In this document: piece after piece, positions 23,028-38,652 of the stretch
Numbering within the stretch: the first letter of the stretch is position 1
How the letters are laid out: each line of letters starts with the position of its first letter
Source of the DNA: Roseibium aggregatum
Lineage (GTDB): Bacteria > Pseudomonadota > Alphaproteobacteria > Rhizobiales > Stappiaceae
Direction of reading: 5' to 3'
DNA length: 64,000 nt
Assembly: GCF_017309185.1 (NCBI RefSeq)
Contig: NZ_JAEKJZ010000001.1
Location: 1,612,001 to 1,676,000, forward strand
Made by a program: the position numbers and the translations under genes
The notes under the pieces: generated by a model
The model's input: only the letters and a program-made list of their open reading frames with translations
Told to the model about the DNA's origin: nothing
The model's database searches: none

Positions 23028-25240
23028 CGGCAAGCCGCCTTTTTCAGTTCCATGAAGGAAGGCCCCCTTTGCTCATCGCGTCTCCAGGTATCCTCAAGCC
23101 GCGCCCGGTCGATTTCCGGAGCCGGTCCCAGGACAAACTCGATCCGGGGGCCGCTGGCCCAGAATGTCGGCAGCTTCGCCTGACCCGGTATGGCCGGTAT
23201 CTGGGCTTCGCAAGGGTCTCTGGTGAGAGCGTCCTTCACATTGGCGAGAAGTTCGTTCAAGGAGGCTTCGGTCGGCGGCTCCTTTAGCGTCACGAGCACA
23301 TCGTGATGGCCCTTGGTGAAATTGCTGGCGCCGCCGTAATGCGGGATGAAACCGCTTCCGGTGACACGATAGACGACCTGAAGGTTTTGCGACGCGGGCC
23401 GCGCGGCGGGAGCGACGCCGCATTCGGGGCGCTGCAGTTTACGCGAAAGCGCGAGCAGAAGGTCGTTCCGGCTGCTGACACCTTTCAGGGAAGCGCAAGG
23501 CAGATCGGAGAGTAGGGCATGCGCTTTCCACAGGGTATCGGTCGCCTTGGGCTTGTCGCAGGCCGCAACCTCCTTGCCCAGAACGCCGATAACGTCGTCC
23601 AGGTCGGCCAAAGCGCCGGAGAAATTATCGATATCCGCGATAATCTGCCTTTCGCGTTCACCGCTTAGGCAGGACATCATGTTCGCGGCGGTGCCGAAGC
23701 TCTCTCTGACGGCTGTTTGGTATCTCTCGTGCAACTGGCGGAAGCCATGTGAGGAACAGGCGCGTCCGGAGCGTAACGTGTATTGGGCCCAGGACAGGAA
23801 ATCGGACCATTTCCGGTAAGGGTAGTCGACTTCGAACTGGATCCCGGACACCACGGAATTGGCCACGGGTATGGAACAGCCCTGTCCCAGAAGGCTTGCT
23901 TTCAGGTCGCGGATCCGATGGTTCATCTCTTCGGCCGGACTGTCGGACAGCGGGCTGATCAGCGCATTGGGAGCAAGCAGTATTCCGCACTTCCGGATAT
24001 TGGCGCGGGCCAGTGCCTCAAGCTCTTTGGCCCGTTTCAGAAACGGTGCGAGCTCCCTTGCACGGGCCTGGAACTTCTCCTTGAACGCGGCCTCCTTCTT
24101 CAGAAAGTCGGAATAGGCCAAATGCGCGCGCTCGTAGTCGCGTTGAAAACGCGCCCATTTCTGGAAATGGGTGACGTGGGACTTGCGTTGGCCGGCCATG
24201 TCGTGGCCTTCCAGCAGATAGGTCTTGTCGCGGATCGACATCGTATCGAAAGACTGCGAGCCGGCCGTGATCTGGCAGTAAGTCAGGTGACGGTAATGCT
24301 CCATGGAGATCCTGGCGTCGGCGACGGCGGTCGTCAGAGACGCCCGGCGCGTGGCCCAGATGACTTGTGCGTCGCCCAGATTGCATTGCCGCAGAAGCTC
24401 ATCCGTTCCGCCGAGCGGCCGGTCCGGATCCCAGTAGGTCTGCAACTGCTCGATGGTCTCGGTCGGGTTCATCACCGCGTTGGCGACGGCGGCCGTCAGA
24501 CCGGTTTTGATCTTGTCCGTCGAGACGGAACGCGCATAGGCAGCCGGGTCCGCGGCGACCTTGTCCGCTTCCATCAGCCAGTCACCGATGCTGAGCGAGG
24601 TGTTGTCGCCGTCGTTGCCGCTGAAATCGATCACCAGGAATTCCGGTATGACATCGGGGCCGCCGGTCGCCAGTTTGCCGGCGAGTTTCGCCAGTTTCTG
24701 GTATTCGTCATAGGTCGCCTTGACGCCGTCGATGACCCCCATTGCCGTGCGTTGTTCCTGCGGCGACAGATTGGTGGACTGGACGACGCTTTTCGCCATG
24801 CAGGCAATGGATCCCTGCAACGCGCCGGTTATCCGATCGACAGGTTCGGAAAAATCGAGCTGCTCGGTCAGATTTTCAAAGCAGTCGGCCGCGCCGGTCA
24901 TGACGCCGGGACCGATCTTTCCGTCGGTAGCCACCTTGCACTTCTTCAAGGTCTCCGCGACCGAAGGCGAAATGCACTGCTCGACCAATGCCGAGGGAAA
25001 TTTCCAGAAGGCGTCCAGCATCGTCGGGCAGACGCCTCCGACGTCGGGCCGGGGCCCTAGGTCCGGGCGCAGGTTATCCGGCGCTTCCGCCGCTTGTGTC
25101 ATTGCGGCGTTCAGTTGGTCGACCGTCAGATAGGTGTAGGGAATGCCGAAAGGGCTGGTGGCTTTGGCCGGCACGGCTGAGAGCAAGATTATCACAGCGC
25201 ACGCGACCAGGCGGTCGAAAGGCAACCGGATCGTTTTCAT
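23024..25240 (-). CDS. Large secreted Cys-rich protein of unknown function
   Basis: A 738-residue protein that I do not recognise. It has a signal peptide (1 to ~28, cleavage near PAKATS), about 18 cysteines scattered through the mature part, which suggests disulfides in the periplasm, a helical middle with a likely coiled coil (about 375-415, KKEAAFKEKFQARARELAPF), and a C-terminal mixed domain from about 630 with VVYRVTGSGFIPHYGG. There are no transmembrane segments after the signal. It is the middle gene of the operon: its ATG overlaps the stop of the Sel1 gene (TGATG) and its stop overlaps the start of the PASTA/PAN gene. Such tight coupling suggests that the three proteins form a complex. 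Confidence 0.75.
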   Translation of the reverse strand: MKTIRLPFDRLVACAVIILLSAVPAKATSPFGIPYTYLTVDQLNAAMTQAAEAPDNLRPDLGPRPDVGGVCPTMLDAFWKFPSALVEQCISPSVAETLKKCKVATDGKIGPGVMTGAADCFENLTEQLDFSEPVDRITGALQGSIACMAKSVVQSTNLSPQEQRTAMGVIDGVKATYDEYQKLAKLAGKLATGGPDVIPEFLVIDFSGNDGDNTSLSIGDWLMEADKVAADPAAYARSVSTDKIKTGLTAAVANAVMNPTETIEQLQTYWDPDRPLGGTDELLRQCNLGDAQVIWATRRASLTTAVADARISMEHYRHLTYCQITAGSQSFDTMSIRDKTYLLEGHDMAGQRKSHVTHFQKWARFQRDYERAHLAYSDFLKKEAAFKEKFQARARELAPFLKRAKELEALARANIRKCGILLAPNALISPLSDSPAEEMNHRIRDLKASLLGQGCSIPVANSVVSGIQFEVDYPYRKWSDFLSWAQYTLRSGRACSSHGFRQLHERYQTAVRESFGTAANMMSCLSGERERQIIADIDNFSGALADLDDVIGVLGKEVAACDKPKATDTLWKAHALLSDLPCASLKGVSSRNDLLLALSRKLQRPECGVAPAARPASQNLQVVYRVTGSGFIPHYGGASNFTKGHHDVLVTLKEPPTEASLNELLANVKDALTRDPCEAQIPAIPGQAKLPTFWASGPRIEFVLGPAPEIDRARLEDTWRRDEQRGPSFMELKKAACR

Positions 25241-26856
25241 CAGTCCAACTCTCCCAGGCCTTCCTCTATAGAGGGCAATGTCTCCGATGACGGTGCAGCC
25301 GTCTGCGGCTCCACGGCAACGGGAGCTTCGACGGTCTCAGTCCGGTCGAGCCCGGTTTCAACGGAGGAGGCGGGAGGCTCGGCGAGAAATTCCGCCGCGA
25401 CCCAACCGCAATAACGATGGGTGCAAACGCGTGCCCACTGGTCGCCGTTGTGGTCGGTTTGCCGTTGCCGGACAACAACTGTATCGTCCATGATCACCGA
25501 CCCGAGCCGTTGGCTCCGGACGCTTGCGCGGGGAAAGACATTGAGTTCGGGAATGTTGACCCGCATCTCCCGGTTCTCGGTGTCGTTGTCAGATACTCTT
25601 GCATCGCTGTCTTCAAGCGCCCAGGAAAGAGCTTCCATCGCCTTTTTCGTTTGCGAACCGAAACTTCCGTCGATCGCTCCGTCGTAAAAGCCTTCCTCCT
25701 TCAATATCTGTTGGAAATCCGAACGGAAGCGCGCACCCCAGGGGCGTGTTTCGGAGGCCAGTTGGGCCGGGCTGATCCGGTAGCCATCCTGTATGGCCCG
25801 GAACAGATGCTCGGCGGACGCGCGATCGTCACGCTCGACAACGAGGCTCTTCCGGTAAATCTGGGCGAGACGGTAATGGGCGTAGGCGCTGCCGTGATCG
25901 GCTGCCTTCCGGTACCAGTGAAAGGCTTTCTGCAGGTCTTTTCGTACGCCTCGGCCCTTTTCGTGAATGAGGGCAAGTTCCAGAGCGGCTTCCCAGTCAC
26001 CTTTTTTGGATGCCTTTTCCAACCACCGGATCGCACTGGACGTGCTTTGCTGAACGCCGTCGCCTTCCAGATACGCAAACGCGAGAAGATACATGGCGTC
26101 GACATCGCCGTTTTCAGCTCCCTTGAGGAGCCATCCGGCTCCGCGATCGGGATCCTTTGGAACCTCCTTGTCTTCCATGAACGCGATGCCGAGGAGTGTC
26201 ATTGCCTGTGCGGAACCACGCGCGGCTGCCTTTGTGAGCCAGTCAATTCCCTTGCCCGTGTCGAGCGGAAATTCGACACCGGTCAGGTAACGCTGCCCGA
26301 TTCTGGTCATGGCTGCCGGATAGCCGCCATTCGCCGCAGCCAGAAGATGCTCCGATGCTTCGCTTGACCCTGCTTTTTCCAGTGCCCGCCCGAGCTGATA
26401 GCGGAACCGGAGTTCTTCCGGAAAAGCTGCCACGGCTGTACGGCAGGCTGGAACCGCACGGGCAGTATCGATCCAGTCGTAGTCGACCCCCACGGTCACC
26501 CTTTTTGCATCGAGCGGATGCGTTGCAAGCCTGTCGCAGTCCTGAACGGGTGCTGTTTTCTTCGAACCCGGCGCGGCGGCAGTCGTCAAACCGGAGGAGG
26601 ACGGCACTGTACCGGGTGACTGTCCGGAGAGCTGTCCGGCGGCCGACCCTTGCAACTTGTTCAATCTGAGACGCGCGAGCGGTGCGAACTGGCCGTTCGG
26701 ATAGGCGCTCAGGTAAGCTTCCAGCTCAGCCCGGTCGCTGCTGTCGCGTACGCTTTCCCAAAAAGTGATCTCCCCGGAGCCGGATTGCGCGACCGCGGAA
26801 AGAGGAACGCCTCCCACCAAAAGAAGTCCGACAAGAAAAGCGCCTAACCGGTGCAT
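25240..26856 (-). CDS. Secreted Sel1-repeat protein with peptidoglycan-binding-like and SH3 domains
   Basis: A 538-residue exported protein, first gene of the operon. A signal peptide (1-24) is followed by FWESVRDSSDRAELEAYLSAYP (about 33-54), the segment usually found C-terminal to bacterial caspase domains. Then come about six Sel1-like repeats (about 155-360; for example AQAMTLLGIAFMEDKEVPKD), a peptidoglycan-binding-type motif EGFYDGAIDGSFGSQTKKAM (near 390) and a bacterial SH3 domain (about 435-495). This is the layout of cell-wall-associated scaffold proteins. The ATG at 26856 follows a G-rich ribosome site; the GTG six codons upstream is weaker. It is divergent from the histidine kinase gene. 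Confidence 0.8.
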   Translation of the reverse strand: MHRLGAFLVGLLLVGGVPLSAVAQSGSGEITFWESVRDSSDRAELEAYLSAYPNGQFAPLARLRLNKLQGSAAGQLSGQSPGTVPSSSGLTTAAAPGSKKTAPVQDCDRLATHPLDAKRVTVGVDYDWIDTARAVPACRTAVAAFPEELRFRYQLGRALEKAGSSEASEHLLAAANGGYPAAMTRIGQRYLTGVEFPLDTGKGIDWLTKAAARGSAQAMTLLGIAFMEDKEVPKDPDRGAGWLLKGAENGDVDAMYLLAFAYLEGDGVQQSTSSAIRWLEKASKKGDWEAALELALIHEKGRGVRKDLQKAFHWYRKAADHGSAYAHYRLAQIYRKSLVVERDDRASAEHLFRAIQDGYRISPAQLASETRPWGARFRSDFQQILKEEGFYDGAIDGSFGSQTKKAMEALSWALEDSDARVSDNDTENREMRVNIPELNVFPRASVRSQRLGSVIMDDTVVVRQRQTDHNGDQWARVCTHRYCGWVAAEFLAEPPASSVETGLDRTETVEAPVAVEPQTAAPSSETLPSIEEGLGELD

Positions 26857-27005
26857 CTTTACCCCCCAATTCACTCCCCGCCTGGATTTTTACACAAAGG
26901 GTTTCCCGTGGTTTTGATGCAAATCATTTCCAAGTTTTTCTGTAGACTGCCGCGCAAGAGGGACGGTTTCCCTAGAGGGCGACCGCCAGGACGCGGGAAA
27001 AATTA

Positions 27006-27022
27006 TGAGCGGTTTCCGCTCA
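27006..27022. promoter_or_regulatory. TGAGCG-N5-CGCTCA palindrome upstream of the kinase operon
   Basis: A perfect 17-bp dyad, TGAGCG-GTTTC-CGCTCA, lies 72 bp before the histidine kinase start. The same 6-5-6 architecture recurs at 31367-31383 upstream of the transport operon. The layout is that of NtrC-class binding sites with a different half-site. It is the probable site of the response regulator encoded at 28764. Confidence 0.6.
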
Positions 27023-27093
27023 AAAAAGACGTCCGGGGAGTTTGCTGGAACAGGGCGTTGGCATAGTGTGCTGCCGGGAGGAACGGCAACTTG

Positions 27094-28767
27094 ATGCCAT
27101 TGCGGGCCAACAGGCTCAATCTCGCCAGGAGGTATCTCTGGGGGGCACTTGTTGCCGCCCTGATTCCGCTTGTTTTCATCGCCGCCCTCTACGACCGTTA
27201 CAGCGCCGACCTCGTCGACAATCTCGTGACCAACCGCGTCAACGCCAATCTGGAAGCGGCGGCGGTTCGCATGAGCAATTTCATGGCCGTGCAGGTCAAC
27301 AAGCTGGAAAGCATCGTCGACCTGCCGGACACGACGGACTTTTTCCTGGAAGAAGAAGGCAGCGCGATTTCACCGCTCCTCAGGGATTTTCTCCTGTTGG
27401 AAGTCGAAAGTCCGGACGTTTACGCGATTGAGCTTTCCAGGGTGTCCGGGGAAACGGTCGCGACGGTTCCGGCCAACCGCACCCGCGAAGACCCGGCCGG
27501 TCTCAATACGTTGCCGCTTGTCCAGCACGGCGCCGTTGAAATTCTCGGGCCGGTTCTGCCCGGACAGGGACGGCCGGGCTGGTTCCTGATCCGCATGCCC
27601 GTTTTCCTCAATCAGCAAAAGATTGGCGTCGTCTCGCTGCGCATGCGGCTGTCGTCGCTGACGGAACTCGCGGCACAACTTGTCGAGCCGGATGTGTACC
27701 AACCGCAGATCGTCGTCTTCGAGCGGGTACGCATGACCCCGGTCGGAACCGAAGCCTTCTCAACCAAGGAACTGGCGCGCTCGCGCCAGTTCCTGCCCGG
27801 TTGGCGCATCCATCTTGTCGAAGGCGGCGGCGATCTGGAAGAGCCGCGCGAACGGATACGCTTTGTCCTGCTCTTCGCCGCCGTTGTGTCGGCGCTTGTG
27901 CTTGTGGCCCTGTTCCTCAAGATGTCTCAAAGGCTGTCCAGCTATCTCGTTCCGCTGAACGAAGGCGCGAAAGCCATCGCCGACGGCAATTTCAATGTGC
28001 CTGTTTCCGAGGACGGGCCGGGCGAACTGGGCACGCTTGCGCGGTCCTACAATCGGATGCGCGAGCAACTGGAAACCCTGATCGCCTCCCGGGTGGAGGT
28101 CGAACGCCGCGCGGCGCTCGGTGGCATGGCGGCAGGCATCGCCCATGAAATCCGCAATCCTCTGGCGACCGTCGTCACCACCGTGCACGGCCTGAAACGG
28201 AACGAGAACGACCCCGAACGCCGGCAGATGTTCGACGTTATCTCCTCGGAGATCACGCGCGTCGACAAGACGATCGGCGAATTCCTCAACTACGCCAAAC
28301 CCAGCCCGCCGGTCCGGGAACCGGTGCTGATCCGGGACGCGTTCCGGTCGATCCGGACGCTGCTGGCAACCAGCGCGCACGAAAAGAACATCGTCATCGA
28401 TCTCTCCGGGGATTCCAGTCTTCAAATCGAAATCGACCCGGCGCACTTCAGCCAGATCCTTTTGAACCTGGCGCTCAACGGTTTCGACGCCATGCCGGAC
28501 GGCGGCCACCTGAAACTGCGTGCCTACCGGGACGGCGGCAGCATTCACGTCACCGTGTCCGACGACGGTTCGGGAATGGATGACGCGACCAGGGAAAGGG
28601 TGCTCCGGCCGTTCTTCACCACGCGCGCCAAGGGATCGGGGCTTGGCCTGCCGGTCACGAAGCAGCTTGTGGAGACCAATGGCGGCGAGTTCTTCATCGA
28701 GAGCGAGGCCGGTCACGGAACCACGGTTACGCTCGTATTTCCAAGGGGGAGTGGGGGGCAACAATGA
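27094..28767 (+). CDS. Membrane sensor histidine kinase of the three-gene sensory operon
   Basis: A 557-residue kinase. Transmembrane helices near residues 15-33 and 265-287 bracket a ~230-residue periplasmic sensor. A HAMP linker follows (about 288-340), then HisKA with the phosphorylated His in GIAHEIRNPLATV near 350 and an HATPase_c domain with N (LNLALNGFDAM), G1 (SDDGSGMDD) and G2 (KGSGLGLPV) boxes. The whole resembles NtrB/ZraS-type kinases that pair with NtrC-class regulators. The ATG at 27094 has GGGAGG upstream (TTG at 27091 is the alternative). Its stop overlaps the regulator start (ATGA), and the next gene but one is a periplasmic binding protein that may present the ligand to it. 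Confidence 0.92.
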   Translation: MPLRANRLNLARRYLWGALVAALIPLVFIAALYDRYSADLVDNLVTNRVNANLEAAAVRMSNFMAVQVNKLESIVDLPDTTDFFLEEEGSAISPLLRDFLLLEVESPDVYAIELSRVSGETVATVPANRTREDPAGLNTLPLVQHGAVEILGPVLPGQGRPGWFLIRMPVFLNQQKIGVVSLRMRLSSLTELAAQLVEPDVYQPQIVVFERVRMTPVGTEAFSTKELARSRQFLPGWRIHLVEGGGDLEEPRERIRFVLLFAAVVSALVLVALFLKMSQRLSSYLVPLNEGAKAIADGNFNVPVSEDGPGELGTLARSYNRMREQLETLIASRVEVERRAALGGMAAGIAHEIRNPLATVVTTVHGLKRNENDPERRQMFDVISSEITRVDKTIGEFLNYAKPSPPVREPVLIRDAFRSIRTLLATSAHEKNIVIDLSGDSSLQIEIDPAHFSQILLNLALNGFDAMPDGGHLKLRAYRDGGSIHVTVSDDGSGMDDATRERVLRPFFTTRAKGSGLGLPVTKQLVETNGGEFFIESEAGHGTTVTLVFPRGSGGQQ

Positions 28768-30098
28768 CCAGTCCGAATGTCCTCATCATCGATGACGAAA
28801 TCAATCTGACCCGCTCGCTGGCCTTCACGCTGCGCCAGGCGGGCATGGACTGCAAGGAAGCGCATAACGGTCATATCGGCTGCAAGATCGCGCAACGGGA
28901 GACGCCCGATATCGTCCTTCTCGATGTCCGCATGCCCGGCATGGGCGGACTGGAGGTGCTCGGCTGGTTCAACGAGGAGCTGCCCGGCGTTCCGGTGATC
29001 ATGATGTCGGCCCTCGACGACACGCAGGATGCGGTTTCCGCCATCAAGATGGGCGCGGTCGACTATGTCTCGAAACCGTTCGACGTTGACGAACTGATCC
29101 ACCTGCTCAACGAAACGGAGACGAGACGGCAACTGGCGTCTGAGGTCCGCTACCTGAGGGAACGGTCCATAGAGTTCGACTTCATCGGAGGCAGTGCGGG
29201 GATCGCTCAGCTCCGCCGCGATATCGAACGGATCGCGGCGAGCCAGGCGCAGACGGTTTTTCTGACCGGAGAAACCGGTGTCGGCAAAGCGGTGGTCGCG
29301 CGCGAACTTCACCGGCAGGGCAGCGGCCTCGACGCGTCCTTCGTCGAGGTCAATTGCGCCACTTTGCCCGTCAGGCAGATCGACACGGAACTGTTCGGAG
29401 CCGAGAGAGGCGGAGGGCACGGTTCGCCGTCAAGGCCGCGCGGACTGGTGGAGATCGCCAATGGCGGCACGCTCTTTCTTGATGAAATCGGGGAAATGCC
29501 GCTCGAGGTTCAGGCGAAATTGCTGAACTTTCTGGAAACGAGATCCTACAGGGTCGCCGGCAGCAATCGGGAGTATCATGCCGATGTTCGGGTGATCGCG
29601 GCGACCAACAAGGATCTCGCCGCCTCGGTCGACGCGGGAGATTTCCGCCGGGACCTGTTTTTCCGGCTGAACGTGGTTCCCATCGCCATTCCTCCGTTGA
29701 GGGAGCGGGAAAAGGATATCGAACTTCTGGCGGTACACTTCGCGGTCAAACACGCGCAGTCGTCCGTGTCCGCCCCGATCGGATTCGACAAGACCACGCG
29801 CGAGTTCTTCCTGAGTTACGACTGGCCCGGCAATGTCCGCGAACTGAAGAACCTGGTCGAGCGGCTTTCGATTCTCTACCCCGGCCAGACGATCACGGCG
29901 GACAGGTTGCCGCCTGAAATCAAATCGGTGGAACCCAAACGGGCACTCTCGATCGAACAGTCGATGGAAAATGTCGAACGCGACCTCATTCGAGAGGCCC
30001 TCATGCGCAGCAAGGGTAAAAAGGGGCTCGCCGCGGACCGGCTTGGTATTTCCCGCCATGCCTTGAAACGCAAGATGCAGCGGCTGGGGCTGGCATGA
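28764..30098 (+). CDS. NtrC-class response regulator lacking the GAFTGA loop
   Basis: A 444-residue regulator: receiver (1-120, phospho-Asp in VLLDVRMPG near 53, Lys in VSKPFD), AAA+ domain (about 140-370; Walker A GETGVGKAVVA, Walker B GGTLFLDEIGEM, arginine-finger region FRRDLFFRLNV) and a Fis-type HTH (about 405-444, GLAADRLGISRHALKRKM). The sigma54-contacting loop, normally GAFTGA, is replaced: after ELFGAERG the sequence is GGHGSPSRPRGLVEIA (about 214-232). Proteins without this loop, such as Rhodobacter capsulatus NtrC, work with the sigma70 polymerase. Overlaps with both neighbours (ATGA) indicate translational coupling. It is the likely binder of the TGAGCG-N5-CGCTCA sites. Confidence 0.92.
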   Translation: MTSPNVLIIDDEINLTRSLAFTLRQAGMDCKEAHNGHIGCKIAQRETPDIVLLDVRMPGMGGLEVLGWFNEELPGVPVIMMSALDDTQDAVSAIKMGAVDYVSKPFDVDELIHLLNETETRRQLASEVRYLRERSIEFDFIGGSAGIAQLRRDIERIAASQAQTVFLTGETGVGKAVVARELHRQGSGLDASFVEVNCATLPVRQIDTELFGAERGGGHGSPSRPRGLVEIANGGTLFLDEIGEMPLEVQAKLLNFLETRSYRVAGSNREYHADVRVIAATNKDLAASVDAGDFRRDLFFRLNVVPIAIPPLREREKDIELLAVHFAVKHAQSSVSAPIGFDKTTREFFLSYDWPGNVRELKNLVERLSILYPGQTITADRLPPEIKSVEPKRALSIEQSMENVERDLIREALMRSKGKKGLAADRLGISRHALKRKMQRLGLA

Positions 30099-31330
30099 CG
30101 ACGATGTGCCGGGCATTCCTTGCCTTTTTTTGCATCCTTCTGGCGACACTGCCTGTCGCGGGCGAAAGCCTGCGCATCAAGGCGGGGTGCCTTTTCCCCC
30201 TGACCGGACCGGGAGCTCTTTACGGGCGCGACAGCACGGTTGCGATCAAGCTTGCCCAGAAGCACCTAGAAAGCCTCGAACCTTTCGGTTATCCGCAGGT
30301 CGACGTCATCGTCGAGGATACGCGGTCAAAGTCCCTTCGCTCGCTTCAGATCGCGCGGCGGCTGATCGACGAAGACCGGGTCGATTTTCTCTGTGGCGTC
30401 GTCAACTCCAGCGTCGCACGGGCCGTTTCCGGTCTCGCGCGGGACGAGGAGGTGTTTTTCATCGGAACAGATCATGCCTCACCGGCGCTGACCTCCGAGG
30501 ACCTGCATCCCTACTACTTCCGCGTGAACAACGGCACCCGCCTGTCGATGCGCGCCGGCGCCAAGTATATTCGCGAAACCTATGGAAACCGGAGCGAGCC
30601 GGTGAAGATCGCTTTCATCGGTCCGGATTACGAATACGGCTATCAGGCCTGGGACGACCTGCGCAGATTTTTGCAACAGCAAGGCACGGAATTCGAGATC
30701 GCCGGTGAATACTGGCCGAAGGTTTTTGAGACGGACTTCTCACCCTATATCCAGTCGTTGCTTCGCACCGACGCGGATATTGTCGTCAACGGCCAGTGGG
30801 GGCTCGACTTCGTCACCTTCGTCAAGCAGGCCGCACAACTCGGTCTCTTCGATCGCCTGCAGTTCATGAACTTCGATGCCGGCGGCAACTACGAGCTTTT
30901 GGCCGAACTGGAAAACGACATGCCGCTCGGGCTCGTCCTGTCGGCGCGCCATCATGTCAATTGGCCGCCGACGGAGCGCAACCGCGCTTTTGTCGAGGAG
31001 TTCCGGGAGGAGGCCGGGCGCTACCCGAGCTATGCCGCGCAAGGAGCCTATGCCGGAATACTGGCCATGGCGGAAGCCGTGCGGAACGCCGGCGGGACCG
31101 GAGACAAGGACAGGATCCGCGAGAGCCTGGAACACCTGACCTTGAGCCTGCCGGAGGATCCGGACGGGTTCCGCTCGAAAATGGACCCGGTCAACCATCA
31201 GATCCTGCAGGTCCAGGCCATCGGCAAGACCATCTTCAACAACAGTTTCGCTCCGGCCAAGGTCATGCTGGGCGATTGGCGGATCTACTATCCTCCGGAA
31301 AGCTGGCCGACCTTCAAAAACGGCAGTTGA
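30095..31330 (+). CDS. Periplasmic binding protein of the sensory operon (Leu/Ile/Val-type fold)
   Basis: A 411-residue exported type I binding protein of the branched-chain amino acid/amide family. It has a signal peptide (1 to ~23, VAGES), then an LTGPGALYGRDSTVAIKLA segment typical of the N-lobe, the hinge region around 190-200 (IGPDYEYGYQAWDD) and a C-lobe ending near WRIYYPPESW. Its start overlaps the response regulator stop, so it is made with the two-component pair rather than with the transporter. The likely role is ligand capture for the kinase's periplasmic domain, or delivery to the LivHMGF system as a second receptor. A different binding protein follows at 31563. Confidence 0.85.
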   Translation: MTTMCRAFLAFFCILLATLPVAGESLRIKAGCLFPLTGPGALYGRDSTVAIKLAQKHLESLEPFGYPQVDVIVEDTRSKSLRSLQIARRLIDEDRVDFLCGVVNSSVARAVSGLARDEEVFFIGTDHASPALTSEDLHPYYFRVNNGTRLSMRAGAKYIRETYGNRSEPVKIAFIGPDYEYGYQAWDDLRRFLQQQGTEFEIAGEYWPKVFETDFSPYIQSLLRTDADIVVNGQWGLDFVTFVKQAAQLGLFDRLQFMNFDAGGNYELLAELENDMPLGLVLSARHHVNWPPTERNRAFVEEFREEAGRYPSYAAQGAYAGILAMAEAVRNAGGTGDKDRIRESLEHLTLSLPEDPDGFRSKMDPVNHQILQVQAIGKTIFNNSFAPAKVMLGDWRIYYPPESWPTFKNGS

Positions 31331-31335
31331 CGGTT

Positions 31336-31383
31336 TGAGCGCTCTCCGCGCAGGAATGAAGCCGAATGAGCGCCAACCGCTCA
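31336..31383. promoter_or_regulatory. Tandem TGAGCG-N5-CGCTCA sites before the transport operon
   Basis: Site B at 31367-31383 is TGAGCG-CCAAC-CGCTCA (perfect arms). Site A at 31336-31352 is TGAGCG-CTCTC-CGCGCA (one mismatch). Their centres are 31 bp apart, about three helical turns, which suits cooperative binding of dimers on one DNA face. They lie about 180-230 bp upstream of the second binding-protein gene, in the spacer after the sensory operon. No -24/-12 sigma54 promoter was found downstream. Confidence 0.6.
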
Positions 31384-31562
31384 TTTTCCTTCTCTCTCCG
31401 AATGGCTCCGGCCCCCCGTTTCGCGAAAACTGATCGCAGTGCACCGGCAAGGCGCACGGGGAGGAAATCCGCATCGCAACACGTAAACCGGCCGCACATG
31501 TCGACGCGCGCCGACCCTTGCGGGTGCCTTCCCCTCGACAGACCATTGGAGGAGGACTGATC

Positions 31563-32888
31563 ATGGCATCAGCCAACAAGGGGGCGCGCGCACGCGCGGC
31601 TAGAAGCTCAAGAAACATTCTCATGGCGGCAACGGCGCTCGGCCTGGCTGCGTCTTTCGTCGCTGCAGGCAGCGCCCAGGCGCAGGAAGAGCCGGTCAAG
31701 ATCGGACTGGTGACCTTCCTGTCCGGTGGAGCCGCGGGGCCGTTCGGCGTTCCGGCGCGAAATGCCGCCGAACTGGTGATCGGTGCAATCAATGCCGGGT
31801 CGCTTCCCGCGCCCTACGACAGCGCGGGTTTTGCCGGCAGGCAGATCGAGACCATCTTCGTCGACGAGAACTCCAAGCAGAAGAACGCCGATTTCCAGAA
31901 ACTCGTCGAAAAAGACGGTGTCGACATGGTGCTCGGCTATATCTCCTCAAGCAGTTGCAAGGCGATCGCACCCGAGGCGGAGAAGGCTGAAAAGCTGACG
32001 ATCCTGTTCGACTGCGGCACACCGCAGATTTTTGAAGAGATCGTCACGGATCCCAAATACACCTTCCGGACCGGCGCTCATGCGACCATGGATAACGTTG
32101 CCGCGGCCCGTTACCTTGTCGACACCGGCGTCAAGACCGGCTCCTATGCGGGCATCAATCAGAATTACGCCTTCGGTCAGGACTCCTGGCGCGACTTTTC
32201 CGCGTCCATGGCCCAGGTCGACGGCGAGGCGACCATTGCCACGGAACAGTTTCCGAAAATCTATGCCGGACAGTACGGCTCCGAGATTTCGGCGCTGCTG
32301 ACCTCCAAGCCGGATGTCATTCATTCCAGTTTCTGGGGGGGCGACATGGAGGCATTCGTGATCCAGGGTTCCGCTCGCGGCGTGTTTGAGCGCTCGAAAG
32401 TCGTGTTGACCACGGGCGAGACCGCCATGCACCGGCTGGGCGCCCAGATGCCGGATGGCACGGTGATCGGCGCGCGCGGCCCCCACGGCGATCTCGCCCC
32501 GGAGTCCGACCTCAACGACTGGTTCCGCAAGGCTTATTTCGACCGTTTCGGCACCTTGCCGACCTATCCCTCCTACAAGATGGCACAGGCTCTGCTTGGC
32601 GTGAAAGCGGCCGCCGACAAGGCCGGAAGCGCCGATCAGGATGCCGTTATCGGGGCCTTGAAGGGGCTTGAGTGGGAAGGTCCGAGCGGCAAGGTTTCCA
32701 TGGCGCTAGCCAATGGCCACCAGGCCATTCAGGGAACGGCTTACGGCACCTACAAGTTCGACAAGGAGACCGGCAAGGCCGCGCTGGTCGACGTCGTTCG
32801 CTACGATGCCGAATGCGTGAACCCGCCCGCCGGCATGAATTCCATCGACTGGATCGAAAGCGGCTTCGAAGGCGCCAAGTGTGAGTAA
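31563..32888 (+). CDS. ABC transporter substrate-binding protein (branched-chain amide/carboxylate type)
   Basis: A 441-residue periplasmic receptor for the adjacent LivHMGF-type importer. It has a long basic signal peptide (1 to ~41, ending GSAQAQEEP), a mature N-lobe beginning VKIGLVTFLSGGAAGPFG, and three internal cysteines (about 137-156 and near the C-terminus) suggesting a disulfide. It is longer than amino acid LivJ/LivK and closer to the amide/urea/aromatic acid receptors. The ATG at 31563 is set by GGAGGAGG. The downstream permease gene is separated by a stem-loop that would let this gene be expressed at a higher level, as is usual for receptors. Confidence 0.9.
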   Translation: MASANKGARARAARSSRNILMAATALGLAASFVAAGSAQAQEEPVKIGLVTFLSGGAAGPFGVPARNAAELVIGAINAGSLPAPYDSAGFAGRQIETIFVDENSKQKNADFQKLVEKDGVDMVLGYISSSSCKAIAPEAEKAEKLTILFDCGTPQIFEEIVTDPKYTFRTGAHATMDNVAAARYLVDTGVKTGSYAGINQNYAFGQDSWRDFSASMAQVDGEATIATEQFPKIYAGQYGSEISALLTSKPDVIHSSFWGGDMEAFVIQGSARGVFERSKVVLTTGETAMHRLGAQMPDGTVIGARGPHGDLAPESDLNDWFRKAYFDRFGTLPTYPSYKMAQALLGVKAAADKAGSADQDAVIGALKGLEWEGPSGKVSMALANGHQAIQGTAYGTYKFDKETGKAALVDVVRYDAECVNPPAGMNSIDWIESGFEGAKCE

Positions 32889-32943
32889 CGCCGAAAACTT
32901 GCCTGTCAGGGGCTTCCTCCCGGGACGTTCCGTCTGACGCATC

Positions 32944-32979
32944 GCCGGGTCTCCGAAGGCAATGCCTCCGGGACCCGGC
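32944..32979 (+). other. Intercistronic stem-loop between receptor and permease genes
   Basis: Arms 32944-32951 and 32972-32979 pair perfectly (8 bp), with an inner 4-bp hairpin (32957-32960 with 32964-32967). No T-run follows. It is probably an RNA-stabilising or partial-termination element that raises receptor over permease expression. Confidence 0.5.
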
Positions 32980-33039
32980 CCTTTCCCGGCGGTGCCGCCG
33001 CCCGGCACCGTTCGATTTCTGACTGTTATGGAGTTTCAA

Positions 33040-33936
33040 ATGCTTACCGCTGTCGCGATAGCAGTGGATGGGCTCGGCTTTGCCGCGTGGCTCTTCCTGT
33101 CTTCGGTCGGCCTCACGCTTATCTACGGCGTGATGCGGATCCTCAACATCGCCCATGGCGGTTTCTATGCTCTTGGCGCCTACACGGCAGCCTGGGCGGT
33201 CGGTCTCTACACACAGACCGGCAGCACGATCGCGCTGACCTATCTGATCATTCCGCTCGCGGCCCTGGTTGCCGGCGTCGTCTCCGGTCTGCTGGTCGAG
33301 CGCGGCATCCTGCGCTTCATGTATGGCCGGGACGAGGTCCTGATGGTTCTCGTGACCTATGCGATTTTCCTGATTTTGGAGGACGTGACCAAACTCATCT
33401 GGGGAACCGACTCCTATGTCTCCTATCAGCCGGCTTACTGGCTCGGGACGATCGACGTTTTCGGCCTGCCTTACACGGTCTACAAGTTTCTCATCATCGC
33501 CGTCGCCATCGCGGTCGGAGCGGCGCTCTATGTCACGCTCAATCACACGAGGGTCGGCAAGCTCCTGCTGGTCGTGATCGAGGATCGGGAGGTCAGCAAG
33601 GCGCTCGGCATCAACGTGACCCTGTTCTTCACGGTGACCTTCGTCATCGGGGCGACGCTCGGCGCGCTCGGCGGCGCTCTGACCGCGCCCGAGATTTCCG
33701 TTGTCCCCGGGATCGGCGCGGAAATCATTGTCATGGCCTTCGCCGTGATCGTCATCGGTGGCATGGGGTCTATCGGGGGCGCGATGCTCGGTGCCCTGAT
33801 CGTCGGCTTTTCGAGAGCCGCCTTCGTTCACCTATACCCGCCGGCCGAACTCTTCTCGATCTATCTCGTCATGGCCGCCGTGCTGGCCGTGAAGCCTTAC
33901 GGATTGTTTGCACTCGCGGAGAGCAGAAAGATATGA
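33040..33936 (+). CDS. livH: Branched-chain-type ABC permease (LivH family)
   Basis: A 298-residue inner-membrane permease with about eight helices. The conserved LivH N-terminal segment LIYGVMRILNIAHGGFYALG (about 30-49) and the coupling region with the conserved glutamate-glycine motif IGGMGSIGGAMLGALIVG (about 245-262) are present. It pairs with LivM. The start at 33040 has GGAG 6 nt upstream; the ATG at 33028 has no ribosome site. Its stop overlaps the livM start (ATGA). The symbol denotes the family; the real substrate is probably not leucine, given the downstream catabolic genes. Confidence 0.9.
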   Translation: MLTAVAIAVDGLGFAAWLFLSSVGLTLIYGVMRILNIAHGGFYALGAYTAAWAVGLYTQTGSTIALTYLIIPLAALVAGVVSGLLVERGILRFMYGRDEVLMVLVTYAIFLILEDVTKLIWGTDSYVSYQPAYWLGTIDVFGLPYTVYKFLIIAVAIAVGAALYVTLNHTRVGKLLLVVIEDREVSKALGINVTLFFTVTFVIGATLGALGGALTAPEISVVPGIGAEIIVMAFAVIVIGGMGSIGGAMLGALIVGFSRAAFVHLYPPAELFSIYLVMAAVLAVKPYGLFALAESRKI

Positions 33937-34913
33937 CCAAGTCCTTCGACAAAACGGAATGGGGGCTCATGGTCGCGCTTCCCGTTCTCATCTGCCTGAT
34001 TTTCGTCCTGCCGGCCTGGGTGGTCAATTATGTTCAGGTGTCGCTCGGCACCGGTCTGGTCGCCCTGGGTGTCACGATTCAAATGCGCGCCGGGCTCGTT
34101 TCCTTCGGGCAGGGGCTCTTCTTCTGCGTCGGCGGTTACTCGGCGGGGCTTGCCGGGAAATTCCTCGGCATTTCGGATGTTTTCCTGCTTCTGGTCCTGG
34201 GGTTGGTCTCCGGTATCCTGATTTCCTTCGTGCTCGGTTTCCTTCTGCGCCGCTATCGGGAGATCTTCTTCGCCATGCTCAGCCTGGCGGTCTCCATGAT
34301 CTTGTTCGGTCTGTTGTCCAGCACCGAGGAACTCGGCAGCACGGACGGTTTCAACCTGCCTCAGGCGACCTATTTCGGCTGGGCGCCGGAGGGCGACACG
34401 GGCAAAACGATGCTCTACGCCGTAACGTGCGTCGTCACGGTGATTTGGGCAATCGCGCTCAACAGGATCCTGCGCAGCCCGCTGGGATACATCAACGAAG
34501 CCATTCGCGAGAACGAATTGCGCGTGGAATATCTCGGCACCTCGGCGCGCCAGGCTGTTCACGTCACCTATGTGATCGCCGCGGCCGTCTCGGCAACCGG
34601 CGGGGTTCTGTGGGCCATGGCGCTGGGCCATGTCGACCCGGAAATGACGAACTGGACCACGTCCGGACAGTTCGTGTTCGTTTCGATCCTTGCCGGAACC
34701 GGAAACATCGTCGCCCCTCTGATCGGGACCTTCATACTGGAAATTGTCCGCGTCTACGCGGTCGAGGTCTCTCCCAATACCTGGCAGATGATTCTCGGCA
34801 CCTTGATGCTGCTTACCATCGTCTTCCTTCCCAAGGGGCTCTGGTCTCTGATGAATACCGCAAAGAAGAAAACCGGCACGGTCCCGGCTGCGGAAGCCGT
34901 TGCGGGAGAATGA
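33933..34913 (+). CDS. livM: Branched-chain-type ABC permease (LivM family)
   Basis: A 326-residue inner-membrane permease with about nine helices. The LivM signature region lies at about residues 195-235 (LRSPLGYINEAIRENELRVE, then YLGTSARQAVHVTYVIA), with the EAA-like glycine loop SILAGTGNIVAPLIGTFILE near 250. The start overlaps the livH stop, and livG begins 1 bp after its stop codon, so the membrane and ATPase parts are a tight unit. The same reading frame stays open far upstream within livH, but that stretch is the shadow of livH and not an extension. Confidence 0.9.
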   Translation: MTKSFDKTEWGLMVALPVLICLIFVLPAWVVNYVQVSLGTGLVALGVTIQMRAGLVSFGQGLFFCVGGYSAGLAGKFLGISDVFLLLVLGLVSGILISFVLGFLLRRYREIFFAMLSLAVSMILFGLLSSTEELGSTDGFNLPQATYFGWAPEGDTGKTMLYAVTCVVTVIWAIALNRILRSPLGYINEAIRENELRVEYLGTSARQAVHVTYVIAAAVSATGGVLWAMALGHVDPEMTNWTTSGQFVFVSILAGTGNIVAPLIGTFILEIVRVYAVEVSPNTWQMILGTLMLLTIVFLPKGLWSLMNTAKKKTGTVPAAEAVAGE

Positions 34914-34914
34914 C

Positions 34915-35715
34915 ATGACGACCATTCTTGAAACCAAAAACCTGGAACGCACCTTCGGCGCCGTCGTCGCGGCAAAGGACATCAATATCCGGATCGACGC
35001 CGGCGAGGTGCTGGGCGTTATCGGGTCCAACGGGGCCGGCAAGACCACCTTCGTCAACATGGTGACCGGCTATCTGCCGCCGAGTTCCGGCGAGATACTC
35101 TATCGCGGAGCGCCGATCACGGGGAAGCCGACGCGCGAGATCATGCGGCTCGGCATCTGCCGGTCTTTCCAGATCCCGCAACTCTTTCCCGAAATGGGCG
35201 TCCTCGATAACATGCTGATCGCCCTGACGATCGCGAAACAGCAAAAGCCGGTTCTGTTCCGGCCGGCCATCGACCGTGTCGTCGAGGATGAAGCCATCGC
35301 GCTGCTGACACGTTTCAGGATCGAACGTTACGCCCATCAGGAAATCCAGACCCTGCCGCAGGGCGTTCGCAAGCTGGTCGATATTGCCATGGCCACGGTC
35401 TCCGATCCCGCGCTCCTGTTCCTGGACGAGCCGACAAGCGGCGTGAGCGCGGACGAGAAGATGGACTTCATGCGCGTCCTGATCGACGCCCTCAAATCGA
35501 CCGACACGGCCGTTTTGTTCATCGAGCACGATATGGAGATCGTCGAGGAATTCTCGCCGCGGTGCGTGGCCTTTTACGAGGGCACGATTCTGGCCGATGG
35601 ACCGACTGGGGACGTGCTCAAGGACGCGAAAGTGCGTGAGTTCGTCATCGGCAGCGAGTTCCACCGCAAGCCCGACGAAAGCGTGGAGACAGCCACCGGA
35701 AAGGGAGCCGCCTGA
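34915..35715 (+). CDS. livG: ABC transporter ATPase (LivG family)
   Basis: A 266-residue ATP-binding subunit: Walker A GSNGAGKTTF near 38, Q-loop FQIPQLFPEM near 88, Walker B LLFLDEPTSGVSADE near 165 and switch histidine in FIEHDME near 205. The signature is variant: instead of LSGGQ the sequence has LPQGVRKLVDIAMA. This shortened form occurs in some Liv-type ATPases of amide and aromatic-acid importers. The ATG at 34915 follows GGGAGA; its stop overlaps livF by one base. Confidence 0.92.
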   Translation: MTTILETKNLERTFGAVVAAKDINIRIDAGEVLGVIGSNGAGKTTFVNMVTGYLPPSSGEILYRGAPITGKPTREIMRLGICRSFQIPQLFPEMGVLDNMLIALTIAKQQKPVLFRPAIDRVVEDEAIALLTRFRIERYAHQEIQTLPQGVRKLVDIAMATVSDPALLFLDEPTSGVSADEKMDFMRVLIDALKSTDTAVLFIEHDMEIVEEFSPRCVAFYEGTILADGPTGDVLKDAKVREFVIGSEFHRKPDESVETATGKGAA

Positions 35716-36371
35716 TGCTGACCGTAACCGACATCAACTTGTCCATCCAGCGCGTGCCGATTTTGAGGGACGTCGATCTGGAGATCGATACGGGTACAAC
35801 CTGCGGGCTGATCGGCCGCAATGGCGCGGGCAAGACCACCTTGATGCGCGCCATCATGGGGCTTCTGCCGATCGAAAGCGGAACCATCCGGTTCAATCAT
35901 GCCTCCCTCGACGAAGCCAGGGCGCACGAGCGGGCGAAGCTCGGCATCGGTTACCTGCCGGAGGACCGGCGTCTGGTGCCGCATTTCACCGTCGAGGAGA
36001 ACATTCTCGTGTCGCTCTGGGCCACCGGCAACCCTGACCGATCCCGCGTGAGCTGGGTCTACGAGCTGATGCCGGAGATCGGCCGCTTCGCCTCGCGCAA
36101 GGCGATGACGCTCAGCGGTGGACAGCAGAAACTGGTGGCTTTGGGCCGGGCGCTCGTGGCCGGCTCGAATCTCCTGCTTTTGGATGAACCCTTCGAAGGG
36201 GTCGCGCCGGCTCTGGCGAAGCGATTGATGGAAGTGATTTCCGACCTGAAGTCGGAACATCTGACGGTCCTGATTTCCGAGTCCGACTACACCCATTCGG
36301 AAAATGTGGTCGACAAGGTCTATTCCATCGAGCGCGGTCAGATCAGTCTGATGAACGCGCTTGCAGCATGA
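35715..36371 (+). CDS. livF: ABC transporter ATPase (LivF family)
   Basis: A 218-residue ATP-binding subunit, slightly shorter than E. coli LivF. Walker A is GRNGAGKTTL near 36, the Q-loop region is YLPEDRRLVPHFTVEEN, the signature is LSGGQQKLVALGRAL near 134, and Walker B is LLLLDEPFEGVAP near 155. The usual switch histidine position reads ISESDY (SESD in place of SEHN-type sequence), a Ser-Asp change worth noting, because LivG retains its histidine and could support one active site of the heterodimer. It is coupled to livG, and the alcohol dehydrogenase reading frame begins at its stop. Confidence 0.9.
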   Translation: MLTVTDINLSIQRVPILRDVDLEIDTGTTCGLIGRNGAGKTTLMRAIMGLLPIESGTIRFNHASLDEARAHERAKLGIGYLPEDRRLVPHFTVEENILVSLWATGNPDRSRVSWVYELMPEIGRFASRKAMTLSGGQQKLVALGRALVAGSNLLLLDEPFEGVAPALAKRLMEVISDLKSEHLTVLISESDYTHSENVVDKVYSIERGQISLMNALAA

Positions 36372-36379
36372 GGCGAGCC

Positions 36380-37552
36380 ATGAACGACTTTATCTTCAAT
36401 ACAACGGCTTCTATTCGCCTGAAGAGCGGCGGCGCGGCTGAACTCGGCGATATTCTCGCGGATATGCCGATCGCCGCGCAGGAGCGCGGTGCAATGCTGG
36501 TTACCGACCCGGGCATCATGAAGCTCGGGCTTGCCGACGCGGCCCTGGAGAGCCTTGAGGCGCGAAAGATCAAGACATTGGTGTTCGACAAGGTGGAAGC
36601 CGATCCCAAGGCGGAAACCGTGCTTGAGGCGACTGCCATCGCGAAGGATGCCGGGATCGGCTGTATAATCGGCTTCGGCGGCGGCAGTTCCATGGACGTG
36701 GCGAAGGTCGTTGCGCTCCTGTGCGGGGCCGACCAGCCGCTGGACGCGCTTTACGGCGTCAATCTGGCGAAGGGAAAGAGACTGCCGTTGGTGCTTGTGC
36801 CGACCACCGCTGGCACGGGGTCGGAGGTCACCGCCGTCTCCATCCTGACGACGGGAACGGAGGAAAAGAAGGGGGTCGTCACCCCGATCATCCTGCCCGA
36901 TATCGCATTGCTCGACCCCGATCTGACCATCGGCCTGCCTCCGCACATAACGGCCGCAACGGGCGTTGACGCCATGGTTCACGCGATCGAGGCCTTCACC
37001 TCGCGAAGCGCCAACAACAATCCGATCTCACGAACCCTCGCCAAGCAGGCACTCGACCTGCTCGCCGCCAATATACGCGAAGCGGTCGCGAACGGTAGCA
37101 ACAGGGAGGCGAGAGTCAACATGCTGCTCGGCTCCATGCTGGCCGGTCAGGCCTTCGCCAATTCTCCGGTCGCGGCGGTGCATGCTCTGGCCTATCCGGT
37201 GGGCAGTCTCTTCCATGTCCCGCACGGTCTGTCCAACGCGCTCGTGCTTGCCGAGGTCATGCGCTTCAACGCGGCCGACTGCGGGGCCGAATACGCCGAA
37301 CTCGCCCCGCATGTCTTTCCCGATATCGACACGGGCCGGTCAAGTCAGGCGGTAACGTTGGACTTCATCGAAAGGCTCGTTTCACTCAACCGCGATCTGG
37401 GTCTCGAGCCGGGGCTGAGCCATGTCGGCATAACGAAGTCGGATATCCCAAAGCTGGCGTCCGACGCGATGAACCAGACCAGGCTCCTGGTGAACAATCC
37501 GCGCGAAGTCCGGGAGGAGGACGCGGCGCGGATCTATGAAGCCTCTCTCTGA
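36380..37552 (+). CDS. Iron-containing alcohol dehydrogenase (group III)
   Basis: A 390-residue NAD-linked, Fe2+-dependent alcohol dehydrogenase. The nucleotide loop is GFGGGSSMDVAK near residue 98, followed by TTAGTGSEVT near 143. The metal ligands are visible as D and H in DAMVHAIEAF (near 196-200) and two H in AVHALAYPVGSLFHVPHG (near 262-280). The group includes 4-hydroxybutyrate dehydrogenases and 1,3-propanediol dehydrogenases. With a succinate-semialdehyde-type dehydrogenase downstream, oxidation of an omega-hydroxy acid to the semialdehyde is likely. The ATG at 36380 follows GAGGCGA; the ATG at 36368 overlaps the livF stop. Confidence 0.92.
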   Translation: MNDFIFNTTASIRLKSGGAAELGDILADMPIAAQERGAMLVTDPGIMKLGLADAALESLEARKIKTLVFDKVEADPKAETVLEATAIAKDAGIGCIIGFGGGSSMDVAKVVALLCGADQPLDALYGVNLAKGKRLPLVLVPTTAGTGSEVTAVSILTTGTEEKKGVVTPIILPDIALLDPDLTIGLPPHITAATGVDAMVHAIEAFTSRSANNNPISRTLAKQALDLLAANIREAVANGSNREARVNMLLGSMLAGQAFANSPVAAVHALAYPVGSLFHVPHGLSNALVLAEVMRFNAADCGAEYAELAPHVFPDIDTGRSSQAVTLDFIERLVSLNRDLGLEPGLSHVGITKSDIPKLASDAMNQTRLLVNNPREVREEDAARIYEASL

Positions 37553-37633
37553 CGGGGAGTGCTTTGGCGCGGCAATATCGCGGTCGGTTGCCGTGACGCG
37601 ATGGAAAAGACCGCATGTTGGGAGGTAAATACG

Positions 37634-38578
37634 ATGAAATCCATTTTTCTGACCGCGGCGTTCTGCTGCGGGCTGACGGGCGCTGCCCTGGCCGAGGGCT
37701 GGCATACGTCCCCGTGGGGGCCGGAAGACGAACTCGGTGCGGCCAATCTCATCACGCCGGAAAGCGTGCTGGCGGCATCGAAGCTCGTCAAGACAGGCAA
37801 GACATACAATCTCGGCATCGAGGTCAGTAAAACGACGCCGGCCTTTTCCCCGCGATCCATGAGCATAACCGTGCTGCAGCCCAACCAGATCACGACTGAG
37901 GGCCTCGGCACGAACGGCATGACCTACAACGATGATATCTTCATGGGGTGGCTCGGCATCGGACCGCAGATCGACGGTCTCGGTCATATCGGCATCAAGC
38001 ATACCTACTATAACGGATTTGCCGGCGCGGAGGTCGCCAAGGCGGACGGGCTTGCCAAGCTGGGACTGGAAAAGCTGCCGCCGATCGTGACACGTGGCGT
38101 GTTGCTCGACATGGCCGCTTTCTATGGGCAGGACATTGTCGAGGAAGGCACGCCCTATACGAGGGAAGATATCATCTCAGCCGCCGAGGCGCAGGGAGTC
38201 GAGCTGAAAAAGGGAGATGTCGTTCTGTTTCACTCGGGCTGGCTGAACCTGCTCGACGGCGAGAACCCGGACCATGAGCGCTATGTGAAGGTGGAACCGG
38301 GACTGGGTATCTCCGGCGCGGAATATCTCGCCGAGGTTGGCGTCGTGGCGGCGGGGGCCGACACCTGGGGCCTTGAAGCTGTTCCTTTCGAGAAAGGATC
38401 CGATGGTGTCTTCGCCGTTCATCAGATACTAATTCCGCAAAATGGTATTTACATTCTCGAAAACATGGATACCCGTGAACTTGCCAAAGACAAGGCGTAC
38501 GAGTTCATGTTCGTTCTGGGCGTCACCCGCATGAAGGGGGCCGTCCAGATGATGATCAATCCGACGGCCATCCGCTGA
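37634..38578 (+). CDS. Exported cyclase-family (PF04199-type) hydrolase
   Basis: A 314-residue protein of the kynurenine formamidase/isatin hydrolase fold family with a signal peptide (1-20, AALAEG), so it acts in the periplasm. The metal motif region, usually H-x-G-x-H-x-D-x-x-x-H, reads IGPQIDGLGHIGIKH (about 117-131): the Asp and last His are kept and the first two His are replaced, as in a divergent subgroup of the family. DVVLFHSGW near 195 and AGADTWGLEAVPF near 240 are other family blocks. Placed between the alcohol and aldehyde dehydrogenases, it may open a lactone or amide before uptake. A GGAGG ribosome site supports the ATG at 37634. Confidence 0.85.
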   Translation: MKSIFLTAAFCCGLTGAALAEGWHTSPWGPEDELGAANLITPESVLAASKLVKTGKTYNLGIEVSKTTPAFSPRSMSITVLQPNQITTEGLGTNGMTYNDDIFMGWLGIGPQIDGLGHIGIKHTYYNGFAGAEVAKADGLAKLGLEKLPPIVTRGVLLDMAAFYGQDIVEEGTPYTREDIISAAEAQGVELKKGDVVLFHSGWLNLLDGENPDHERYVKVEPGLGISGAEYLAEVGVVAAGADTWGLEAVPFEKGSDGVFAVHQILIPQNGIYILENMDTRELAKDKAYEFMFVLGVTRMKGAVQMMINPTAIR

Positions 38579-38652
38579 CCGTTCGGAACATTCGGCCCGG
38601 CCCCGCGTTCATGCAGGACACGGGGCCGTCAACTGTGAAAAGGAAGTTTCCG

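Follow-up and report, generated by a model that had tools for sequence, protein, structure and literature searches.

In a 64,000-nucleotide stretch of the Roseibium aggregatum genome (the window throughout), a 17-bp dyad, TGAGCG-N5-CGCTCA, flanks the genes for a sensor histidine kinase, an NtrC-family response regulator and a periplasmic binding protein (SBP1), and precedes an operon encoding a second binding protein (SBP2), the permeases and ATPases of an importer, an iron-containing alcohol dehydrogenase (Fe-ADH), a putative cyclase and a succinate-semialdehyde dehydrogenase (SSADH). We found that the dyad is rare in the genome, is conserved in orthologous clusters and stands before importer operons that have moved away from the regulator, and that the sigma-54 contact motif GAFTGA and a -24/-12 promoter match are absent together in the window and in related loci. 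Judged from sequence, the response regulator very probably uses the dyads as its operators. The best reading of the comparison is that transcription would have switched from sigma-54 to a sigma-70-type factor with the operator and the operon kept.

The dyad is rare in the genome and precedes two transcription units

Three copies lie in the window:

27006-27022: probable operator dyad before the sensor kinase gene, TGAGCG-GTTTC-CGCTCA, perfect
31336-31352: probable distal operator dyad of the importer operon, TGAGCG-CTCTC-CGCGCA, one mismatch, directly 3' of the SBP1 stop codon
31367-31383: probable proximal operator dyad of the importer operon, TGAGCG-CCAAC-CGCTCA, perfect

An earlier reading made from the letters without database searches (the sequence-only reading) had listed these copies with their differing spacers, and all three were found again as described. 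The copies at 31336 and 31367 are 31 bp apart, centre to centre. The window contains two perfect dyads, and 0 of 100 dinucleotide-preserving shuffles of the window contained any. With up to one mismatch allowed, the three copies compare with a shuffle mean of 0.38, and 0 of 100 shuffles reached three. The signal vanishes when up to two mismatches are allowed in the window (6 observed, 6.00 expected).

The sequence-only reading had predicted few further copies in the genome and had named frequency in coding DNA as grounds for abandoning the idea. The whole genome (6,120,823 bp) holds two perfect dyads, both at this locus, and 12 one-mismatch dyads, including the one at 31336; 10 of the 11 others overlap open frames of 60 amino acids or more on either strand (open frames, not proven genes). 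A backward-read control pattern matched 7 places in the genome with up to one mismatch, compared with 14 for the dyad. The prediction held, and with the perfect dyad found only at this locus a frequent genomic motif is ruled out. Base composition alone would give 0.64-0.72 perfect copies per 6.12 Mb (at an assumed G+C of 60-66%), so the count of two is weak by itself and the argument comes from place and conservation. A chance repeat is ruled out by the window shuffles together with conservation in orthologous clusters and further genomes.

The dyads are conserved before orthologous and relocated operons

We compared the cluster-bearing loci L108-L116, L120, L021, L071, L123/L145, L124, L137/L143, L138/L163 and L139-L141. 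The promoter gaps of 21 stretches held 52 dyads with up to two mismatches (31 perfect, 18 with one mismatch and 3 with two), an apparent conservation that is partly built in, since the dyads were picked at this threshold within gaps that we had named ourselves. Depending on gene order, the gap lies 5' of SBP1 (L114, L115, L116, L071, L139-L141) or 5' of SBP2. Among 22 neighbouring dyad pairs, 21 are spaced 28-33 bp and one 41 bp, which is about three or four helical turns, and the 31-bp pairing of the window recurs in L108 and L109. The helical phasing that had been noted in the window thus extends to its relatives, and the footprinting suggested as a check found dyads conserved in the orthologous gaps.

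In three genomes (G1284, G1233 and G978) importer operon and regulator are separated: SBP1 stays beside the kinase and regulator genes, and the dyads precede the relocated operon. The operon of G1233 lies about 27 kb from the regulator; the single perfect dyad of that genome ends 217 bp 5' of the SBP2 match, forms a 32-bp pair with a one-mismatch copy and is followed by CTGGCCCCGCATTTGCT. The dyads of the relocated operons of G1284 and G978 are likewise paired. Nine further regulator-bearing genomes held 25 perfect dyads, 17 in gaps of the cluster or the relocated operon and 8 elsewhere, and 0 matches to the backward-read control pattern. A negative control of 850,882 bp, drawn from 78 loci with other NtrC-type regulators, contained no perfect dyad and a single one-mismatch copy; at none of these loci was there a match to Fe-ADH, to the cyclase, to a permease or to a binding protein, and one locus had an SSADH match, at 24%. 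Genomic rarity, orthologous conservation and position before relocated operons all argue for two proposals of the sequence-only reading, namely that the dyad is a site for a bound regulator common to both transcription units and that the regulator encoded between the copies is its likely binder.

Loci without the sigma-54 contact motif lack a strong -24/-12 match

28764-30098, plus strand: NtrC-family response regulator (receiver, AAA+ and Fis-type helix-turn-helix (HTH) domains), the probable dyad binder
29409-29426, plus strand: GGGHGS codons at the GAFTGA position of sigma-54 activators

The window regulator scored above the cut-offs for Response_reg, Sigma54_activat and HTH_8, which makes it an NtrC-family response regulator. 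Loop L1, where GAFTGA or GAYTGA was looked for, reads GGGHGS, a loss of the motif within an otherwise NtrC-type protein. The receiver aspartate D54 and the HTH residues S430, R431, H432, L434, K435 and R436 are invariant in 22 of 22 aligned regulators. The 6-5-6 layout of the dyads had been called NtrC-class. The term stands for the protein family; in the sense of a sigma-54 enhancer it fails for the window copy because GAFTGA and a convincing -24/-12 promoter are gone, and the half-site TGAGCG is not that of NtrC.

A database search found 237 proteins, and in the 120 listed the GAFTGA pattern was degenerate in 90, intact in 27 and assigned to neither state in 3. Two of the 90, P0093 (GAYTGS) and P0098 (GAYTSS), are yet only one and two residues off GAYTGA; they are possible intermediates of the loss, and in the tree they look like an early third erosion. 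Intact forms surround a clade of 27 GAFTGA-less rows that contains the window (support 100/100), and L114, also GAFTGA-less, falls outside this clade on a long branch. A single clade of all 28 GAFTGA-less rows was rejected (p-AU 0.002, a test that long branches may influence). Outgroup sequences with GAFTDA, labelled degenerate by the pattern, were not counted as losses. The motif appears to have been lost at least twice.

We scanned for -24/-12 promoters with a matrix built from consensus frequencies, in a region that we set from the last dyad to the match of the next gene (in L113, to the contig end). Every locus with a GAYTGA-type motif (11 of 11) had a match, with scores of 11.0-15.5 and shuffle fractions of 0.002-0.058, starting 50-104 bp downstream of the dyad. 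In the 9 loci without the motif the best score was at most 9.8 (9 of 9). The window reached 5.1, with a shuffle fraction of 0.325, and we count no -24/-12 promoter there. The second highest score of the motif-less loci, 9.5, came from L114, at a position estimated to lie inside the start of the SBP1 gene. Both independent contrasts run in the same direction; a sign test gives p 0.5 and at n = 2 cannot reach significance, since a level of 0.05 takes six or more contrasts. On balance we lean towards a change of sigma factor in place at an orthologous operon, in which the contact loop and the -24/-12 promoter would have been lost together, at least twice independently, with the operator and recognition helix unchanged, and a distant enhancer would have become a promoter-proximal site.

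A candidate promoter element and predicted autoregulation

31402-31405, plus strand: A-T-G-G, bases 19 to 22 past the proximal dyad, a weak candidate for part of a -10 region of the sigma-70 type

Seven of the nine GAFTGA-less loci have A-T-N-G at these offsets. Base by base, offset 19 is A in 7 of 9, offset 20 is T in 8 of 9 and offset 22 is G in 8 of 9. When one sequence per group was used (7 sequences), the best adjacent pair was reached in 1.3% of shuffles. With A-T-N-G taken as part of the -10 region, the proximal dyad would lie at about the position of the -35 box, and we infer that the regulator may directly contact a sigma-70-type polymerase.

Six of the nine GAFTGA-less loci also have a dyad 88-91 bp 5' of where the kinase gene is estimated to start, among them the window with its copy at 27006, and L120 has a two-mismatch dyad at -56 from the kinase start. 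Among the nine intact-motif loci examined upstream of the kinase (L140 and L141 left out), L111-L113 have dyads there and six have none. The kinase-upstream dyads suggest autoregulation. At the same place, L111, L112 and L113 all carry a TTGG-N9-TTGCG-like stretch (scores 6.6, 6.6 and 8.8), possibly a weak sigma-54 promoter of the kinase gene.

Alternative explanations

Taken as a whole, the explanation that the regulator binds the dyads as operators, that its sigma-54 contact and promoter were lost and that control is now of the sigma-70 type is, from the sequence comparison, probable. Several observations weigh against it. For the joint loss, the 20 loci provide two independent contrasts. 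The sigma-54 scores do not separate cleanly at the edges: L109, without the motif, scores 9.8 (fraction 0.03), where the window has 5.1 and L108 6.6, and L071 is marginal with a shuffle fraction of 0.058. L108 carries a sigma-54-like stretch 5' of the kinase gene that scores 11.3 and is not shared with the window and L109. The fixed-offset A-T-N-G element does not occur in L114, and when each group was represented by one row, the single columns of the element were reached in 0.03-0.47 of shuffles, column 22 in 3%. Near the dyads we found no good -35/-10 pair (26850-31700 gave one match, where 0.8 were expected). In L021 and L114 the kinase gene is not preceded by a dyad. Lone perfect dyads occur elsewhere in other genomes, five in G167 and one each in G350, G1031 and G1284. 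Those of G167 (L164-L168) are near trpG-like, phosphotransferase system and HrpF-like (type III secretion translocator family) genes; a larger regulon was considered, and they are probably due to chance. In four loci (L115 at 7665, L116 at 7598, L140 at 7380, L141 at 7398) the distal dyad stands 3' of the regulator gene within a long stem followed by T-runs (folded stretches of -21.4 to -27.3 kcal/mol), resembling a strong terminator hairpin; in loci of this type the distal dyad could possibly double as operator and terminator.

Among the alternatives, the one that survives best, unlikely as we judge it, is that the regulator binds the dyads and represses, with promoter-overlapping sites blocking RNA polymerase until the ligand signal arrives. 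The proximal dyad is indeed close to the presumed promoter core in the GAFTGA-less loci, and the available part of PMC1173090 offers a precedent in TyrR, which mostly represses after loss of GAFTGA. Set against this, the one -35/-10 match near the dyads is not a strong pair in need of repression, and the intact-motif relatives retain the geometry of an activator.

It is improbable that sigma-54 dependence persists in the window copy, where the contact loop would have diverged and the -24/-12 promoter degenerated, for example to CGGGGAGGAAATCCGCA, which has GG and GC at the right spacing. A GG-N10-GC stretch does stand 73-74 bp after the dyad in the window, L108 and L109, but its scores there are the low values given above, in none of the remaining six GAFTGA-less loci does it score best, and PMC3162934 describes activity as mostly lost when the central F and T of GAFTGA are changed.

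There is a slim chance that the dyads are bound by another transcription factor encoded elsewhere, since the link between dyad and regulator is drawn from sequence and the G1233 operon lies so far from its regulator. However, the kinase and response regulator are the regulators present in all clusters (neighbouring genes were not systematically scanned), the control loci of other NtrC-type regulators hold no perfect dyad, and the HTH is conserved along with the site.

We regard it as very unlikely that the dyads act as hairpins in RNA, as intrinsic terminators or parts of a leader would, rather than as protein-binding DNA: besides the four loci above, the proximal dyad of the window, with TTTTCC after it, gives a fold of -15.4 kcal/mol, and the dyad at 27006 passes a terminator pattern scan on the minus strand (9 sites in the region, 5.3 expected), but pairs keep a 28-33 bp spacing, the genes on either side of the 27006 copy are predicted to diverge, so that no transcript should end there, many copies are by eye without an extended stem and T-run, and the genome has the perfect dyad only at this locus. 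A known leader RNA near the dyads was also considered and rejected, as 26900-32000 gave only two Rfam matches, both far below gathering scores.

The gene cluster and its distribution

The other features of the window locus are as follows:

27094-28767, plus strand: sensor histidine kinase (HAMP, HisKA and HATPase_c, by domain search)
30095-31330, plus strand: SBP1, a Peripla_BP_6 binding protein and putative sensing partner
31563-32888, plus strand: SBP2, the importer binding protein, first gene of the second operon
32962-36371, plus strand: urea/branched-chain-type ABC importer with two permeases, the second recognised through its homology to a Sinorhizobium meliloti gene, and two ATPases
36368-37552, plus strand: Fe-ADH
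37559-38578, plus strand: putative cyclase/hydrolase (PF04199), which varies among relatives
38611-40137, plus strand: SSADH, above the TIGR01780 cut-off
25240-26874, minus strand: Sel1-repeat gene, divergent, whose start lies 132 bp from the 27006 dyad

The Sel1-repeat gene was unmatched in the other fetched cluster loci. By eye, a GGGAGGA sequence stands well 5' of the true SBP2 ribosome-binding site, with a leader between, in the window (31457-31562), L108, L109, L110, L120, L021 and L145; in L110 and L145 an apparent hairpin, also seen by eye, lies immediately 5' of that ribosome-binding site.

Orthologous clusters were found in other Alphaproteobacteria and in two groups outside the class. 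They contain the kinase, the NtrC-type regulator, a binding protein and a urea/branched-chain-type importer, usually with Fe-ADH and SSADH. The regulator is patchily distributed in the family, order, class and phylum samples. With the genome of the window counted, it was found in 3 of 87 genomes of the family, 6 of 297 drawn from the order and 6 of 385 drawn from the class (all at E<=1e-90), and in 7 of 398 drawn from the phylum (E<=1e-105). It also occurred in 1 of 43 genomes of the order of G669 (E<=1e-120) and in 2 of 394 drawn from a further family (query P0007, E<=1e-120), presumably Rhodobacteraceae, judging by a 16S probe. In an S. meliloti plasmid (L120) the same cluster lies near integrases and transposases, which fits the patchy distribution.

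Three of the six class-level regulators, L117-L119, are cluster-free: their regulator identity is 39.6-41.3%, the binding proteins, importer and dehydrogenases were unmatched, and they contain 0 perfect dyads. They were excluded from the promoter and dyad-pair counts. L119 has two one-mismatch dyads, one of which (2583) starts 158 bp 5' of its 41%-identical regulator.

A candidate pathway

Fe-ADH and SSADH are both present in the window, L125, L126, L128, L130, L131, L124, L120, L140, L141 and L123; in other stretches the operon end often lay outside the fetched sequence. L127 (G256) has Fe-ADH and cyclase, but its 18 kb of fetched sequence gave no match to SSADH, and another aldehyde dehydrogenase, or none, may serve after the cyclase (L127, 8000-9000). 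L129 (G167) has the cyclase only. The middle hydrolase varies: it is the cyclase in the window and a metallo-beta-lactamase (MBL)-fold protein in S. meliloti, and none stands between Fe-ADH and SSADH in L124 and L128. In L130 and L131, which have the intact motif, a second Fe-ADH follows SSADH, as would suit a diol pathway.

The SSADH assignment is the only one above a curated cut-off; the Fe-ADH fell below the cut-offs of all 17 NCBIfam families that it matched. Its best solved chains were methanol dehydrogenase, lactaldehyde reductase and 1,3-propanediol oxidoreductase, with the Cvir-Hbd2 chain lower, and these matches do not settle its substrate. From the gene content, the cluster perhaps oxidises gamma-hydroxybutyrate or a related diol to succinate.

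The gamma-butyrolactone operon blcABC (attKLM) of Agrobacterium is similar in make-up. Compared by that make-up, it shares Fe-ADH and SSADH with our cluster, and a metallo-hydrolase with that of S. meliloti, whereas the window cluster has an ABC importer and two-component control. Exact equivalence to blcABC was considered and rejected: L142, the one examined among 40 listed plasmid homologues of the Fe-ADH, has the SSADH gene gabD and ABC transporter genes nearby but also acyl-CoA genes and no lactonase. A blcABC-like role of the cluster is offered as a hypothesis only.

Discussion

Classical NtrC enhancer sites are 17-bp 6-5-6 dyads with the half-site TGCACC, paired upstream of sigma-54 promoters. 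The intact-motif relatives resemble this arrangement, whereas the window differs in its half-site and in having no convincing sigma-54 promoter.

The available part of PMC10274813 names Rhodobacter capsulatus NtrC, Caulobacter NtrC and Vibrio cholerae VspR (so written there) as GAFTGA-less regulators that act on sigma-70 promoters. Like the window regulator, the two NtrC proteins are alphaproteobacterial NtrC-family regulators without GAFTGA; unlike it, they are nitrogen regulators and carry a deletion spanning the motif, whereas the window motif is substituted. The L108 and L109 regulators are two residues shorter at the motif position. A further difference is that, here, intact-motif relatives with a sigma-54 match and with the same operon and operator are available for comparison. 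As described in the accessible portion of PMC1173090, TyrR and PhhR belong to one family with sigma-54-type and sigma-70-type members, split by loss of GAFTGA, and TyrR was recruited to a new biosynthetic function, whereas here the operator and operon stay. PMC3162934, in the part available, names TyrR, DhaR and HupR and reports about 110 homologues with small deviations, in which proline is preferred over the threonine; this preference fits the GALPG-type loops of relatives in our set. The available parts of these three papers contain no case of an operator and operon unchanged across a sigma switch, and a literature search for the motif string returned nothing evidently relevant among the matches listed.

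From these comparisons we infer binding, its dependence on phosphorylation, sensing through SBP1, the use of sigma-70 and the sign of regulation. A ligand, probably presented by periplasmic SBP1, would alter the sensor kinase, and the phosphorylated regulator would bind the helically phased dyads as cooperating dimers. It would then control the importer/dehydrogenase operon (31563-40137) and, through the dyad at 27006, its own operon. In the intact-motif relatives the bound regulator would be a classical enhancer-bound AAA+ activator of the sigma-54 promoter 50-104 bp downstream. In the lineage of the window, the sigma-54 contact motif and the -24/-12 promoter would have gone, with the operator, recognition helix and operon kept. 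With the proximal dyad near the -35 position, the regulator most likely acts directly on a sigma-70-type RNA polymerase, and at the window operon it is more likely an activator than a repressor.

NtrC-type regulators without GAFTGA were already known; here one cluster holds both states around the same 17-bp operator. A two-component system named in none of the family libraries used would now have a specific candidate operator and a small predicted regulon. The passage from an AAA+ enhancer protein to a sigma-70 regulator that these loci suggest would be testable by swapping promoters and loops between orthologues.

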